64,000 nucleotides of DNA from NCBI RefSeq assembly GCF_019669985.1, contig NZ_AP019782.1:2660001-2724000 (forward strand), read 5' to 3'. The translations under genes and the position numbers were made by a program. The notes beneath the pieces are model-generated. The model saw only the letters and a list, made by a program, of their open reading frames with translations. It did no database searches and was not told the DNA's origin. The stretch's first letter is position 1; every line of letters starts with the position of its first letter. The stretch is from Methylogaea oryzae. Lineage in GTDB: Bacteria > Pseudomonadota > Gammaproteobacteria > Methylococcales > Methylococcaceae. This document shows, piece after piece, positions 33,937-44,065 of the stretch.

Positions 33937-36885
33937 CTATAAGTCCTGGGCTAGACGGAAACCGACATCGATGCCGCGGAGGATGCCCGGGTAGCCCCCG
34001 CCGCGGTCGGCCGAACGCACGGCCGCCGGTACGACGTCCCAGGAACCACCGCGGATCACCCGCCGGCCGTCATCGCCGGTCTCCCAGGCGGAACCGTCGG
34101 CCGGCGCGCCCGTGTAATCGCCGTGCCAGCAATCGCGCACCCATTCCCACACATTGCCGCTGGTGTCGTACAGGCCAAAGTCATTGGGCGGGAACGAGCC
34201 GACCGGCGACGGCTGTTTGCCGCTCCACTGGCTGCCGCCGTCATCACAATTGGCACGTTGCTTTTCAAACTTATCGCCCCACCAATAGGCTGTTGCAGTT
34301 CCGGCGCGGCAGGCGTATTCCCATTCCGCTTCGCTAGGCAGCCGTCCGCTCGCCCATGCGGCGAAACGGCAGGCCTCCTCCCAACTCACCCCCACCACCG
34401 GCTGGCGCGCCTGGTTGAAACGGCGGTCACCCCAATAGGCCGGCTCGCTGACATCCGGATTCGCTTGCAAATAGCGGGCGTATTCCTCGTTGGTGACCGG
34501 ATATTTGCCCAAGTAAAATGGCTTGATCTGCACTTCGTGTTGCAGGTGTTCGTCACTGTCACCGACGCCATTAGGCGAACCCATGAGAAAACGCCCCCCA
34601 GGGATCAGCAGCAGTTCGACACTGCCGTTGGCGCTGGTGAGTGACGCAGCCGGGGTAAGAAGTAACGACATGTGCCCGGTTACATCCCCAAGCTGACCGT
34701 CCTTGAAAACGCGATGAACAGCTCGAACACCCAGCCTAGCCAACAATGTCTGGTATTCCGCTTCCGGCAGCAGCCGTTGCAGCAAAGGCAAAGCCGCCCG
34801 CCGCCCCTGCAAGCCCCCATCGCCATCGGTCGGCTGTTGCAGCCACTTTACAAACGGCTCCGCCGTCACCTCCGCCGCCTCTTCCAAAATCAAGCCCCCC
34901 AGCTCCGCCGACAGGTCGAAATCCAGCAGCTTCAAGGCTTCTTGCATGAACGGTGTGAACAGTGAAGGGTTGCCCTGGGCCAGCACCAGCAGGATCACCT
35001 CCTGCCACCAGCTATCGGCGTGGCGCGCGGCCAAGTCGCGCAACACCGCTGCCTTGTCGCCCTCGAAAGCCTGGCGGCGCAGTTCGCAGGCGGCCAGGTA
35101 TTCCTGGAAGCCCAGGTGCATGAAGCCGAATTGATCCTGCCCCCAGCCGGTGAGCAGGCCGCTTTCGTCGCGCACGGCGCGCAGCAGGGCTTCCGCATCG
35201 CCGCCGGGCCAGTTGCGCTGTTGCAGCACCGGCTCGATGTGGGGAGCCAGTTGCGCCGCCGTGGCGCGGGTGCGTTCCTTTTCGCCATGCAGCCACAGCG
35301 CCGCCGGCTGCAAGGCGCGCCGGCCCAGTTCGGCGGGCACGGATACGTCCAGGGACTTCACTTCCCGCCAGTGTTCCAACAACACGTCGATGCATTCGTC
35401 GTACAACTGGTGGCGATTGCGCGGCAAGGCGCCCCGGTCGCGGTGCACCAAACACAGATTGGCCAACAGCAACGGGTTGCGTGTCAGCGTCGCCATGCGC
35501 GCCAAGCGGAAATCCGGCTGGCGCAGCCGTTCGATGAGGCTGGCTGCGCCTTCCTCGGTCTTGATGGCGGCTTCCGGCGTGTCGCCCGCCAGGCCGGTTT
35601 CCACCGCCCGGTACCAGTTGCGGATGAAGTCGTCCGACTGCTCCGGCGTCAAGGGCCGCAGGTGCAGCTCCAGGAATTGAGCGCCCAGCCGGTCGCTGTC
35701 GTCGTAGCCGGCGAAGCGGCAAGTGATCACGGCGGTGCAATGGGGCCGGGCCTGGGCCGCTTGCTCGATCCAGCGGGACACCTGGGCGCGCCGCTTGGGA
35801 TCGCTCACTTCGTCCAGGCCGTCGAACAGCAGCAGCAAGGGCTGGCCGTGCAGCAGCCGCTGGCCGAAGCCTTGCGGCATATTCAAGTGCGGGCTGTCCA
35901 GGGTCTTTTCGATAAAGGCGTCAATGCCGCGCTCCAGGTCGTCCAGCTCCCGCAGCGGCAGAAACACCGGCAGCGTGTCCGTCGGCAGCCCCAGGCCGGC
36001 CGGGCCTTGCTTCAGGCAATGCAGCAGCAGGCGCTTGAGGTGGGTGGTTTTGCCGGAGCCGGGATCGCCCAGTATCGCCAGCCCCCGCCGCTTGCGCTGT
36101 CCCGCCGCGCGGAAGGCTTCGATCAGGGGAATTTCCTCGGCGCCGTGTTCGCCCAGTTGCTTTTCCGCATCAGCCGCGTCGGCATACCCCACCTTGCCGC
36201 TCGCCCGCAAATGCAGCCGGGCGTGCAGCGGCACGTACAGCTCCTCCAAGGCGATGGGCACGCGCAGCTTGGTTTTGAAACCGGCCAGGGGCAGGTCTTG
36301 GTGCTGGGCCAGGACGGCCAGCCGATAGCGTTCCAGTTCCGAGGAATCGGCAACAGCGGCTGACGGTGTGGTTTGTTGGACGGGCTGTATGCCTTCCTGC
36401 TTTTCGCGCCAGCTTTTCAAAGTGTCCAGAACCGACCCGTGCAGCAGTTTTTCAGTAAACAACGCGGGCATTTGGTCGCCACGGTATTTGGCGCGGAAGG
36501 CGTCAAGCTTTTCCTGCTTAGCCCAGCGGTCGGGACCTTGGTCAATATCCGTTTGGAAGTCAAAGGAGGTTGTAGCGATTTCGAATACGAAACACGGCCT
36601 GCCCACCGCCTTGGCCGCGTCGTATTCCAGTTCGGTGATGGAAACGGCCTTGCCGTCGGGTATCCAGCCGTAGCGGTGGGCGATGATGCCCACGTACACA
36701 TCGCAATCCCGCGCCTGCCGTTCGCATTCATCCACGGTGGGATTGGCCGAAGCGGTGAAGCGCTCCATGCCTACAGGCGTCATCTTGGCACGCAGCACTG
36801 CGTCCTCCACCAGCTTGCGCCGCTCCTGGTTGTCGAGGTAGGTGCTGGAGATAAAAACGGTGTAGGGGTGTTTGGCCTGGGCCAT
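33937..36885 (-). CDS. DUF4062-NACHT-FGE-sulfatase multidomain protein
   Basis: A 982-residue cytoplasmic protein with three recognisable parts. Residues 8-90 are a DUF4062 domain (YTVFISSTYLDNQERRKLVE, DVYVGIIAHRYG), a TIR-like nucleotide-binding or signalling fold. Residues about 265-440 are a NACHT NTPase with Walker A GDPGSGKT (273-280) and Walker B LLLLFDGLDEV (350-360), followed by a helical region with HLGFQEYLAACEL. Residues about 756-982 are an FGE-sulfatase/C-type lectin fold (IPGGRFLMGS, PVTNEEYARYL, RLPSEAEWEYACRAG, SGNVWEWVRDCW, IRGGSW, GFRLAQDL). No membrane segment is seen. The layout fits NLR-like sensors of conflict systems: effector, oligomerising NTPase, ligand-binding end. 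ATG 36885 is preceded by GGGAGG at good spacing. BrnTA lies downstream. Defence is an inference. Confidence 0.9.
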   Translation of the reverse strand: MAQAKHPYTVFISSTYLDNQERRKLVEDAVLRAKMTPVGMERFTASANPTVDECERQARDCDVYVGIIAHRYGWIPDGKAVSITELEYDAAKAVGRPCFVFEIATTSFDFQTDIDQGPDRWAKQEKLDAFRAKYRGDQMPALFTEKLLHGSVLDTLKSWREKQEGIQPVQQTTPSAAVADSSELERYRLAVLAQHQDLPLAGFKTKLRVPIALEELYVPLHARLHLRASGKVGYADAADAEKQLGEHGAEEIPLIEAFRAAGQRKRRGLAILGDPGSGKTTHLKRLLLHCLKQGPAGLGLPTDTLPVFLPLRELDDLERGIDAFIEKTLDSPHLNMPQGFGQRLLHGQPLLLLFDGLDEVSDPKRRAQVSRWIEQAAQARPHCTAVITCRFAGYDDSDRLGAQFLELHLRPLTPEQSDDFIRNWYRAVETGLAGDTPEAAIKTEEGAASLIERLRQPDFRLARMATLTRNPLLLANLCLVHRDRGALPRNRHQLYDECIDVLLEHWREVKSLDVSVPAELGRRALQPAALWLHGEKERTRATAAQLAPHIEPVLQQRNWPGGDAEALLRAVRDESGLLTGWGQDQFGFMHLGFQEYLAACELRRQAFEGDKAAVLRDLAARHADSWWQEVILLVLAQGNPSLFTPFMQEALKLLDFDLSAELGGLILEEAAEVTAEPFVKWLQQPTDGDGGLQGRRAALPLLQRLLPEAEYQTLLARLGVRAVHRVFKDGQLGDVTGHMSLLLTPAASLTSANGSVELLLIPGGRFLMGSPNGVGDSDEHLQHEVQIKPFYLGKYPVTNEEYARYLQANPDVSEPAYWGDRRFNQARQPVVGVSWEEACRFAAWASGRLPSEAEWEYACRAGTATAYWWGDKFEKQRANCDDGGSQWSGKQPSPVGSFPPNDFGLYDTSGNVWEWVRDCWHGDYTGAPADGSAWETGDDGRRVIRGGSWDVVPAAVRSADRGGGYPGILRGIDVGFRLAQDL

Positions 36886-36995
36886 GGGGACGCCTCCCTT
36901 TCTCTTGTGAATACCAAGCGCCGGCACGATTGGGATTCCGCCCACCGGCCAAGCCCAAGATTAACCGAAATTGCCAGCTCCGTCCGGCGTGCAGT

Positions 36996-40690: not shown

Positions 40691-41326
40691 TCAGGCTTGG
40701 CGCTTTAACAGGCTGGCGCGCCAAGCGTCGGACAGGGCGTCGACGGACAAAGCGCGGCGGATGATTTCCTGCTGGCGCGGCCCTTCCGCCAATGCCAGCA
40801 TGCAATCGCGGATATTCAGGCCTTCGGCGTCGGCCCTGACCAACTCGATGGGATCGCCGCCGCGCACCTGGCCCGTTTCCAACACCCGCAGGTAGAAACC
40901 CACCCGGCCGGAGGTCATGAACCGGCTGACGAAGTCGGCCATCCCCATGCGCAAGCCCAACTTGAAGCAAGGCACGCGCGGCTGGGTCACCTGCACCAGG
41001 ATCTCGCCGATACGGAACACATCTCCCAGGTGCACCGCTTCGTCCGGCATGCCGCTGACGGTGAGATTTTCGCCGAACTGGCCGTGGGGCATGTCGGACC
41101 GCCCCAGCGCCTCCCGCCAATAATCGTAATTTTCCGCCGTGTAGGCATAAACCGCCTTATCCAACCCGCCGTGGTTCTCCAGGTCGGCTTGCCCATCGCC
41201 GGCCAAGCCGGTGGCGGACACCGCGACCAGCCCCGCGACCGGCGCTTTATAGATGCCGGTCGAAACCGGTTTGCCGTGATCGTCTACGGTGCGCGGCATG
41301 CCGACGCTGATGGAGAGTAATTGCAT
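40691..41326 (-). CDS. MOSC domain protein (YiiM-like)
   Basis: A 211-residue MOSC protein. GLAGDGQADLENHGGLDKAVYAY and YWREALG are typical, and the conserved cysteine that would ligate molybdenum cofactor is in QPRVPCFKLGLRMG. The C-terminal 3-alpha region follows. YiiM relatives reduce N-hydroxylated bases such as 6-hydroxylaminopurine; the partner reductase is not adjacent. It is divergent from the phosphate porin and probably heads the run to pncC. Confidence 0.9.
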   Translation of the reverse strand: MQLLSISVGMPRTVDDHGKPVSTGIYKAPVAGLVAVSATGLAGDGQADLENHGGLDKAVYAYTAENYDYWREALGRSDMPHGQFGENLTVSGMPDEAVHLGDVFRIGEILVQVTQPRVPCFKLGLRMGMADFVSRFMTSGRVGFYLRVLETGQVRGGDPIELVRADAEGLNIRDCMLALAEGPRQQEIIRRALSVDALSDAWRASLLKRQA

Positions 41327-41417
41327 GGAGCGGTCTCGCTGATATCGGTTACCCCGGCCATTTTAGTCATCGGCGCCCCGCCGCACTAGCCGGCCGATGT
41401 GAACGGCCGCCGCACCG

Positions 41418-41473
41418 TTGTCACACAACTGTCATATTCCTTTCACATCCCTGTCACATGCCCTTCGTATCTT
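41418..41473 (+). promoter_or_regulatory. Extended Pho box and promoter of the phosphate porin
   Basis: Four PhoB half-sites follow each other in exact 11-bp steps: TTGTCAC (41418), CTGTCAT (41429), CTTTCAC (41440) and CTGTCAC (41451), with 4-bp AT-rich linkers ACAA, ATTC and ATCC. A -10 like TATCTT (41468-41473) begins 10 bp after the last half-site, the spacing of classic PhoB promoters in which the box replaces the -35. This makes two adjacent Pho boxes and predicts strong induction under phosphate limitation. Confidence 0.88.
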
Positions 41474-41525
41474 ACGCCCCGTTAATTTTAATAACGCTTA
41501 ACGCCTCGAAGGGGAGTCGATTTTG

Positions 41526-43112
41526 ATGAAAGCGAATAAGAAACTGGGCCTGCGTTCTGGCGCAACCTTGGGCGCCGCGGCCCTGGTCTTTTCGGCCGGC
41601 GCAGCCGCCGCCGATAAAGAACTGCTGGACATGTTGGTGAAGAACGGCGCGATCAACAAAACGCAGTACGACACTTTGCTGAAGAAAGCCGATCTTTCCA
41701 AATCGGACGTCAAGGACGCCCATGCCGGCAACGCCCACGTGGTGCTGGGCGACAAGGGGCTGGAAATCGGCAGCAACGACGGCAACTTCAAAGCCGCCAT
41801 CGGCGGACGCCTGCAGCTCGACGGCCAAACCAACTGGAACAGCCATAACCTTCCGAACGCCACCGGCGCGAACACCACCAACGCATTGGCCGACGGCACC
41901 AGCCTGCGCCGCGCCCGTCTGCACGCGGAAGGCACCTTCTTCAAGGATTACGATTACAAATTCGAGTACGACTTCACCCGCGGCCCCGGCACCACGGCGG
42001 CCGGCGTGACCGACGCCTATATCCGTTGGAACGCGCTGAAGCCTTTCGCTCTGACGGTGGGTCAATTCAAAGAGCCGTTCAGCTTGGAAGAAGCCACCAG
42101 CAACCGCTTCCTGACCTTCATCGAACGCAACATGGCGGTCAACGCCTTCTCCGACAACCCCAACGCCTACCGTATCGGCGCCATGGGCTCCTATTCCGAA
42201 CAGCGCTGGATGGCCGCCGGTGCGTTGATGTCCGAATCCGTCGGCGGTTCCGGCTTGACCTGTAACGCCGCCGGCACTTGCACCAACGTCAACGGCGCCA
42301 CGCTGTACAACACCAGCTCGGTCAACACCAACGGCAACGCCAACCGCAACAACGGCAGCGGCAACAGCAGCTGGGACGTCACGGGCCGCGTAGCGGGCCG
42401 CCCCTGGTACAACAGCGAAACCGAATTCCTGCATGTCGGTGCTTCCGGTTCGTATCGCACCATCAACAACAATTACACCGGCAACAGCGCCTTCAACAAC
42501 GGCGGCACGCTGTTCGCTGCCTCCATCGGCAACGTGGACCGCACCGCCCTCCTCAACACCGGCAACCTGACCAAGGGCAACAAAGGCGCCGCGGGCTCTT
42601 ACGAACTGGATCATTACACCCGGTTCGGCGCGGAAAGCGCCTTGGTGTACGGACCGTTCTCCATGCAGGGCGAATATATCCGCACCGGCCTGCAGGGCAA
42701 CGGCTATAAGGACGAGGTGCTGGAAGGCTACTACGGCTACGGCAGCTACTTCCTGACCGGCGAATCCCGCAAGTACAAAGCCAGCACCGGCGCGTGGGAC
42801 CGCATCACGCCGAGCCGCAACTTCGACATGAACGGCGGCTGGGGCGCCTGGGAAGTGGCGGCCGGTTACGACTACCTGAACCTGAAGGACGGCACGGTGA
42901 ACGGCGGCCGGGCTCAGACCGCGAAAATCGGCCTGAACTGGTATCCCAACTCCCACGTCCGCCTGATGGCCAACTACGTCCACGTGTTGAACATCGATAC
43001 GGCGCCGACCGCATCGGGCACGACGGTTGTCAACCAACCCGGCGCGCGCTCCCAGGCCTTCAACAACACCAACCCGGACATGCTGCAATTCCGCGCTCAA
43101 GTGGATTTCTAA
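41526..43112 (+). CDS. Phosphate-selective porin, OprP/OprO type
   Basis: A 528-residue outer-membrane protein. A 29-residue signal peptide ends in GAAAA; a short helical N-terminus (LLDMLVKNGAINKTQYDTLLKK) resembles the coiled-coil found in this porin family. The barrel has the OprP signature regions (GRLQLDGQTNW, LRRARLHAEGTFFKDYDYKFEYDF, VGQFKEPFSLEEATSN) and ends in phenylalanine, as outer-membrane barrels do. One extracellular loop near residue 270 is very Asn/Thr/Gly-rich. ATG 41526 has AAGGGGAG upstream. The Pho box upstream makes phosphate or polyphosphate uptake the probable role. Confidence 0.93.
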   Translation: MKANKKLGLRSGATLGAAALVFSAGAAAADKELLDMLVKNGAINKTQYDTLLKKADLSKSDVKDAHAGNAHVVLGDKGLEIGSNDGNFKAAIGGRLQLDGQTNWNSHNLPNATGANTTNALADGTSLRRARLHAEGTFFKDYDYKFEYDFTRGPGTTAAGVTDAYIRWNALKPFALTVGQFKEPFSLEEATSNRFLTFIERNMAVNAFSDNPNAYRIGAMGSYSEQRWMAAGALMSESVGGSGLTCNAAGTCTNVNGATLYNTSSVNTNGNANRNNGSGNSSWDVTGRVAGRPWYNSETEFLHVGASGSYRTINNNYTGNSAFNNGGTLFAASIGNVDRTALLNTGNLTKGNKGAAGSYELDHYTRFGAESALVYGPFSMQGEYIRTGLQGNGYKDEVLEGYYGYGSYFLTGESRKYKASTGAWDRITPSRNFDMNGGWGAWEVAAGYDYLNLKDGTVNGGRAQTAKIGLNWYPNSHVRLMANYVHVLNIDTAPTASGTTVVNQPGARSQAFNNTNPDMLQFRAQVDF

Positions 43113-43157
43113 TCCACACCTCGTATCACTCGTAGACGCTCGTCGTCTTTCCTTTCA

Positions 43158-43184
43158 CCCCGCCCGCAAGGCGGGGTTTTTTTT
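43158..43184 (+). terminator. Intrinsic terminator of the porin gene
   Basis: CCCCGCC (43158-43164), 5-nt loop, GGCGGGG (43170-43176), then eight T on the plus strand. It is 45 bp past the stop codon. Confidence 0.92.
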
Positions 43185-43294
43185 GCTTTGAAAAAACCCA
43201 AGCTCTCGGCCCAGCTGAAGGCCGGCCCGCCGCCTCCCAATCGAAGCCCGTTTCCGAGTAACATGCGCAGCCTGCGCCGCTTCCGCCTCCGCCC

Positions 43295-44065
43295 ATGAAC
43301 GACGACCAACTGCTCCGCTACAGCCGCCAAATCCTCCTGCCGCAAATCGACGTGGACGGACAGGAAAAGCTCCTGGCCGCCAAAGTGCTCATCATCGGCG
43401 CCGGCGGCCTGGGATCGCCCGCCGCCATGTATCTGGCCGCCGGCGGCATCGGCCGTATCGCTATCAGCGACCACGACGCGGTGGACCTGTCCAACCTGCA
43501 ACGGCAGATCCTCCACGGCACGCCCGACATCGGCCGGCCAAAAACCGAGTCGGCGCGGGATGCCCTGGCGCGTTTGAACCCGGAGGCGGAAGTGATCGCC
43601 ATTCCCCGCAAGCTGGAAGGCGAGGAACTGGAGCGGCAGGTCGCCGCGGCGGACGTGGTGCTGGACTGCTGCGACAACTTCGCCACCCGCTTCGCGGTGA
43701 ACGCCGCCTGCGTGAAGGCCGGCACGCCGCTAGTGTCCGGCGCGGTGATCCGCTTCGAAGGCCAGGTGGCCGTGTTCACACCGGGCCGCGACGACGGCCC
43801 CTGCTACAACTGCCTCTACCCGGACCAGGGCGAAATGGACGCATCCTGCGTGCGCAATGGCGTCATCGCCCCCCTGCCCGGCATCGTCGGCGCCATGCAG
43901 GCATTGGAAGCCATGAAGCTGATCCTCGGCCTGGGCCGTTCCCTGGCCGGCCGGCTGCTGCTGCTGGACGCCCTGAGCATGGAATGGCGCAGCCTGCGGC
44001 TGCCGCGCAATGCCGACTGTCCCACTTGCGGCGGAGATAGCCAAGCCCGAGGGCGGAATTCATAA
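43295..44065 (+). CDS. moeB: MoeB/ThiF-family adenylyltransferase
   Basis: A 256-residue E1-like enzyme that adenylates the C-terminus of a small sulfur-carrier protein (MoaD or ThiS). It has the nucleotide-binding motif VLIIGAGGLGSPAAMYLA, the ATP-contacting DLSNLQRQILH and GRPKTESA, the acidic VVLDCCDNFATR, and two CxxC zinc pairs (CYNCLYP and CPTCGG). No rhodanese domain is fused. Length is that of MoeB; ThiF cannot be excluded because no moa or thi gene is nearby. It runs in the same direction as the EboD-like gene 65 bp on. Confidence 0.9.
   Translation: MNDDQLLRYSRQILLPQIDVDGQEKLLAAKVLIIGAGGLGSPAAMYLAAGGIGRIAISDHDAVDLSNLQRQILHGTPDIGRPKTESARDALARLNPEAEVIAIPRKLEGEELERQVAAADVVLDCCDNFATRFAVNAACVKAGTPLVSGAVIRFEGQVAVFTPGRDDGPCYNCLYPDQGEMDASCVRNGVIAPLPGIVGAMQALEAMKLILGLGRSLAGRLLLLDALSMEWRSLRLPRNADCPTCGGDSQARGRNS

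Follow-up and report, generated by a model that had tools for sequence, protein, structure and literature searches.

Does the array of direct repeats in front of a porin gene of this methanotroph act as a PhoB-type promoter, and what would the porin carry? We addressed these questions in the window, i.e., the whole 64-kb stretch of DNA analysed, in the complete genome of 4,018,824 bp, and upstream of porin relatives in other genomes. Based on the results below, it is very probable that the region 41418-41473 is a PhoB-activated promoter driving a low-phosphate anion porin of the OprP/OprO family, which would feed PstS.

Organization of the repeat array

Four half-sites of the PhoB type were read with a period of exactly 11 bp, and the -10 hexamer TATCTT starts exactly 10 bp past the last of them (Table 1), as the original prediction had it. 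The same prediction described the linkers as AT-rich, which is correct only in part: ACAA and ATTC have three A/T of four bases each, and ATCC and ATGC two of four each. A degenerate fifth unit in register, CCTTCGT, was found at 41462, with a weight-matrix score below zero. The array is intergenic, with a MOSC-domain gene (40691-41326, leftward) on one side and the porin gene (rightward) on the other.

The position for a -35 element, 17 bp 5' of TATCTT, is occupied by ACATCC (41445-41450), which is unlike TTGACA, and a consensus scan of 41327-43300 found no sigma-70-type promoter at the array. Both results are as expected where PhoB stands in for the -35 element. A Pho box was taken here to consist of at least two CTGTCAT-like 7-bp units with an exact 11-bp period, located in the -35 place at a fixed spacing to the -10 element, and the array of four units follows this pattern. 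The PhoB binding unit is 22 bp long and comprises two 11-bp repeats, each of CTGTCAT plus 4 bp, according to PMC2648988. The array shares with the Pho boxes of the E. coli PhoB regulon the 11-bp direct repeats with a 7-bp conserved core and a loose 4-bp linker, the strict spacing to the core promoter and an apparent phosphate-uptake gene as the target. It differs from them in having four units instead of the minimal two, and in its methanotroph host. Multiple Pho boxes are known elsewhere, for example at pstS of E. coli.

Table 1. Features of the promoter array and the porin gene (window coordinates).
Feature	Coordinates	Strand	Basis and remarks
PhoB half-site 1, TTGTCAC	41418..41424	+	sequence; 9.6 bits
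PhoB half-site 2, CTGTCAT (perfect consensus)	41429..41435	+	sequence; 11.8 bits
PhoB half-site 3, CTTTCAC	41440..41446	+	sequence; 8.5 bits
PhoB half-site 4, CTGTCAC (proximal)	41451..41457	+	sequence; 10.2 bits
-10 hexamer, TATCTT	41468..41473	+	starts exactly 10 bp past half-site 4
Ribosome-binding-like site, AAGGGGAG	41509..41516	+	putative, from the sequence alone
Porin_O_P outer-membrane porin, 528 aa, ATG at 41526	41526..43112	+	PF07396; PDB; Foldseek
Terminator-like site 3' of the porin gene, 8-pair stem and T-run	43157..43184	+	consensus match

The weight matrices used for scoring were set up by hand on the basis of the E. coli consensus, and none was trained on the loci of this study. 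Their background was GC-rich for the scores of the window, of the own genome and of the 30-locus set described below, and uniform for the scores of the 77-locus set and for the pair and spacing counts, so bits differ between the two. With the PhoB-type matrix, the array reached 40.1 bits over its four units; judged from the top four matches per strand, 5.3 bits is the upper limit for any other place in the window. A search of the 64-kb window for three half-sites in register, with two mismatches at most, gave three matches, all at the array, and shuffles give an expectation of 0.01. Genome-wide, the exact pair TKTCAYN5TKTCAY yielded six matches at only three places, and the reversed control pattern yielded none.

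Pho genes and further boxes in the genome

The genome encodes PhoB (TIGR02154, 334.1 bits vs. a cut-off of 296.2), PhoR (TIGR02966, 409.6 bits vs. 334.2) and a PstS-family protein (TIGR02136, 306.7 bits vs. 206.6, and under the cut-off of the other PstS model, TIGR00975). Their genes adjoin at approximately 785-788 kb. The phoB promoter reads TTGTCAC-AATT-CCGTCAT, 10 bp, TATCCT, and the pstS promoter reads TGGTCAT-CAAG-TTGTCAC, 10 bp, TATAGT; thus, two more Pho genes have the 11-bp repeat and the 10-bp spacing in common with the array. No site was found at the second Porin_O_P gene of the same genome (2325110-2326222), where the best pair in the locus scored 6.2 bits vs. 21.4 bits for the window porin. 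The assignment to PhoB is supported by these results, as well as by the sites found before most of the porin relatives that were read.

A scan of the genome for similar boxes had been suggested as a way to define the Pho regulon. It showed that porin, phoB and pstS share one layout, but it was less clear-cut for weaker sites: pairs with at most one mismatch gave 74 matches genome-wide vs. 34 for the reversed control, from which about half of the one-mismatch matches are expected by chance. For this reason, the regulon search was confined to sites with at most one mismatch. After collapsing identical repeat copies, 70 distinct matches were obtained, and 68 of them were examined; these are counts of matches and not of places, the porin array contributing three and locus L002 two. 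The T1A2..T6 core was located at 10 bp in only five of the 68 matches (porin, phoB, pstS, L150 and L189). The two distinct matches outside the 68 are at 2721782, where no -10 core was seen on reading, and at 4016563 (L193).

In L189 (~700-820; G000:C1:3963200-3963216, minus strand), a one-mismatch pair is followed after 10 bp by TATGTT upstream of a gene for a CBS-domain protein, whose match to the phosphatase SiaA was below the cut-off. This gene is a candidate for a further Pho gene. In L150 (752-819; G000:C1:1081652-1081668), a one-mismatch pair, 10 bp and TAGCAT precede an EAL-domain gene, which may reflect a link of phosphate to c-di-GMP, or chance.

Two other sites were set aside as regulon members. 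In L001, the exact pair is found where a methyltransferase-like gene starts, on the gene's other strand. In L002 (1500-1528; G000:C1:1680901-1680928), the site consists of three half-sites in register, flanked by a transporter gene and a methyltransferase-like gene, both leftward. It is oriented away from the start of the transporter gene, lacks a T1A2..T6 core at 10 bp, and is possibly a repressing or chance site. The gene labels in L001 and L002 are those that we presume from the translations.

Conservation of the promoter upstream of porin relatives

A search for relatives of the porin covered 101 genomes, namely the organism's own and those of 100 relatives, and gave matches in 81. The search returned 30 loci, including that of the window, and their upstream regions were read on the proper strand. 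A qualifying pair (at least 12 bits) was present in 19 of the 30 loci and absent from 11. Among the 19 pair-bearing loci, TANNNT was found at exactly 10 bp in 13, and each of the other spacings between 3 and 18 accounted for one at most. L025, a relative with 56% identity, had no Pho-box site upstream, and G001, the only further genome of the genus that was searched, had no close orthologue of the porin (best E 4.8e-14).

A single-protein query against the wider named-genome contigs confirmed no relative. An alignment query against named genomes gave at least 468 loci, the best 80 of which came from Methylococcales, Nitrosomonadaceae, one Nitrotoga, one unclassified betaproteobacterium and unclassified proteobacterial MAGs. 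Methane and ammonia oxidisers of the gamma- and betaproteobacteria make up most of these best 80 of at least 468 porin relatives, alongside some unclassified MAGs. Such a spread suggests transfer or shared ecology. The Porin_O_P relatives from Methylococcales and Nitrosomonadaceae are 40-58% identical to the window porin over the best segment, and most of those read have Pho-box-like pairs upstream. Three loci (L071, L078 and L097) were dropped for short upstream DNA, and 77 were scored; the 30-locus and 80-locus sets overlap (e.g., L030 / L144), and their counts were not summed.

A score of at least 14 bits was reached by 64 of the 77 upstream regions, and one of at least 16 bits by 49. In dinucleotide shuffles (n = 2310), the respective rates were 0.6% and 0.09%, and of the 77 reversed upstream regions, four and none passed. 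The shuffle rates are not probabilities for the whole 77-locus set, as related sequences are not independent. The 12-bit level, passed by 70 of 77 regions vs. 2.0% of shuffles, is a weak test, since 21 of 77 reversed regions pass it as well. The 13 loci below 14 bits include nine between 10 and 14 bits; the low scorers were L140 with a short upstream region (1.3 bits), L148 (0.7 bits), the fragment L122 (below zero) and L088 (4.7 bits), whose low score is probably due to a wrong start.

TANNNT was located at spacing 10 in 30 of the 70 pair-bearing loci, with a maximum of four for each of the remaining spacings between 3 and 18. By name, the 77 loci were divided into 40 non-nitrifier loci (29 methanotroph names and 11 unclassified proteobacterial MAGs) and 37 nitrifier-type loci. 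A pair of at least 12 bits was present in 34 of the 40 non-nitrifier loci; 26 of these 34 had TANNNT at exactly 10 bp (no more than three at other spacings), and 22 had at least three in-register units. Among the nitrifier-type loci, 36 of 37 had the pair and only four had TANNNT at 10 bp, because many have TATAAC or TATAAA there.

It should be noted that Pho control of OprP-family porins is already known; what is new is the instance in the window, together with its conservation among methane and ammonia oxidisers. No report of a Pho-controlled porin in methanotrophs or nitrifiers was found in the open-licence literature, as covered by the titles and first lines of abstracts for part of the matches. 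Within the literature so covered, a conserved promoter before a porin lineage of methane and ammonia oxidisers, with an altered anion site, appears to be new. Through the promoter, a porin with only a loose annotation is linked to phosphate limitation, on evidence that does not depend on its amino acid sequence. The activity of methanotrophs and ammonia oxidisers in nature can be nutrient-limited, and the array suggests a marker promoter for phosphate stress in both groups.

Porin, anion site and proposed function

The designation of the gene product as an OprP-type porin is supported. It matched PF07396 at 201.2 bits vs. a cut-off of 20.9, and a sequence search of the PDB (E up to 1) gave OprO and OprP alone. 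The AlphaFold2 model, built with 16 sequences, had a mean pLDDT of 73.9, with values below 50 in 113 of the 528 residues, among them 1-29, 241-281 and 496-508. Foldseek ranked 2o4v, 4rjw and 4rjx (OprP and OprO) as the three best matches, with E from 7e-28 to 1.9e-25 (3e-11 for the next match), TM-scores of 0.59-0.60 by query and 0.72-0.76 by target, and rmsd of 6.4-7.0. As modelled, the porin has the OprP fold. OprP is a trimeric, 16-stranded barrel, and the window porin may be trimeric too. It differs from OprP and OprO in being only about 22% identical over the structural alignment and about 100 residues longer (528 vs. 411-429 aa in the solved chains).

The N-terminal segment of the window porin, ADKELLDMLVKNGAINKTQYD (41526-41730), is similar to those of L025 and L043 and unlike that of the closest barrel relatives (DLYVDTKTKQ...EPG). 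Most Methylococcales and Nitrosomonadaceae relatives have a DLYVDTKTKQ-like segment, whereas the window porin has ADKELLD...NGAINKTQYD, which makes an N-terminal exchange possible.

The central phosphate site of OprP consists of D94, Y62, S124, S125, K121, K126, R34 and R133, as listed in PMC5877670. In the alignment, four of these eight residues are identical in the window porin (R34 as R95, D94 as D163, S124 as S192 and R133 as R201), and four are altered (Y62 to R131, K121 to E189, S125 to N193 and K126 to R194). Among the 16 aligned sequences, no variation was seen at R95, S192 and R201, and hardly any at D163. Position 114, which is Y in OprP and D in wild-type OprO, is K182 in the window porin. 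No arginine of the window porin aligned with R218, R220 or R242 of OprP, presumably the arginine-ladder residues, in a loop that is weakly aligned. Judging from the alignment, the core of the anion site is present in the porin, but the site is not that of OprP.

Phosphate is a likely substrate: the PhoB-type promoter argues for a phosphate-specific pore, although only half of the OprP site residues are kept. We consider it unlikely that the promoter is PhoB-driven while the pore is not phosphate-selective and passes pyrophosphate or polyphosphate, organic phosphates, phosphonates or general anions. Such a pore would agree with the replacement of K121 by E189 and with the presence of R131 and K182 at both positions that separate the OprO mutant 4rjx (F62Y/D114Y) from the wild type 4rjw, but not with the retention of R95, D163, S192 and R201. 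The promoter alone cannot separate phosphate from pyrophosphate, since phosphate limitation raises OprO as well: in P. aeruginosa, OprP rose 82-fold and OprO 87-fold, according to PMC9769906. Annotation as a phosphate-selective porin does not always denote a phosphate channel: ExtI of Geobacter was unchanged under phosphate limitation (PMC5877670). However, ExtI shares only about 12% identity with OprP/OprO and retains two of the eight site residues. Somewhat doubtful is the proposal of a Pho-controlled outer-membrane channel lineage common to methane and ammonia oxidisers, with a recast OprP anion site and hence a selectivity unlike that of both OprP and OprO. In the window porin, the recast site would comprise Y62 to R, Y114 (D114 in OprO) to K and K121 to E around the kept core of R34, D94, S124 and R133. 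If this is true, the channel might be selective, for example, for another phosphorus anion, or have a different affinity for phosphate, and the recast site poses a directly testable question of channel selectivity.

The identity of the regulator can be questioned as well. OmpR-family proteins bind direct repeats of similar spacing, and six more matches in the genome span the full TIGR02154 profile with scores below the cut-off. Nevertheless, binding of the repeats by another regulator of this family is very improbable: one regulator alone passes the PhoB cut-off, phoB and pstS of the genome have the same layout, and the consensus is the one given for PhoB in PMC2648988. Hardly credible at all is an array without function, arisen by chance or decayed. 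Apparently inert intragenic PhoB sites are common in E. coli (PMC10294691), and one exact pair of the genome (L001) is located at the start of a methyltransferase-like gene, but the intergenic position, the correct orientation, the four units, the 10-bp spacing and the conservation all speak against it.

Based on the preferred reading of a PhoB-activated promoter, we suggest the following mechanism. Two abutting Pho boxes (four 11-bp units) would replace the -35 element of a sigma-70 promoter. At low phosphate, PhoR would phosphorylate PhoB, and PhoB dimers would occupy the four direct repeats head to tail. The proximal dimer would then recruit sigma-70 RNA polymerase to TATCTT, exactly 10 bp downstream; for activated PhoB promoters, a strict spacing to the core promoter is supported by structural models, as stated in PMC10294691. 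Cooperative and strong induction by the two joined Pho boxes, which was part of the original prediction, would be plausible. The porin transcript is probably single-gene and would end at the terminator-like site listed in Table 1; the scanned stretch contains eight such sites vs. 3.0 expected in shuffles. The porin would pass phosphate, or a related phosphorus anion, over the outer membrane to periplasmic PstS.

Two further observations concern genes outside this system. Two pmoA-type genes (PF02461, 434.1 bits each) were found on the minus strand at G000:C1:3384089-3384802 and 3387293-3388006, with starts about 3.2 kb apart, and possibly represent a tandem methane monooxygenase duplication. 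Their presence points to a methanotroph. In the window, the minus strand at 33937-36945 encodes a 1002-aa protein, whose translation we take to include a DUF4062-like start, a NACHT-like NTPase and a formylglycine-enzyme-like end; it is possibly a defence protein.
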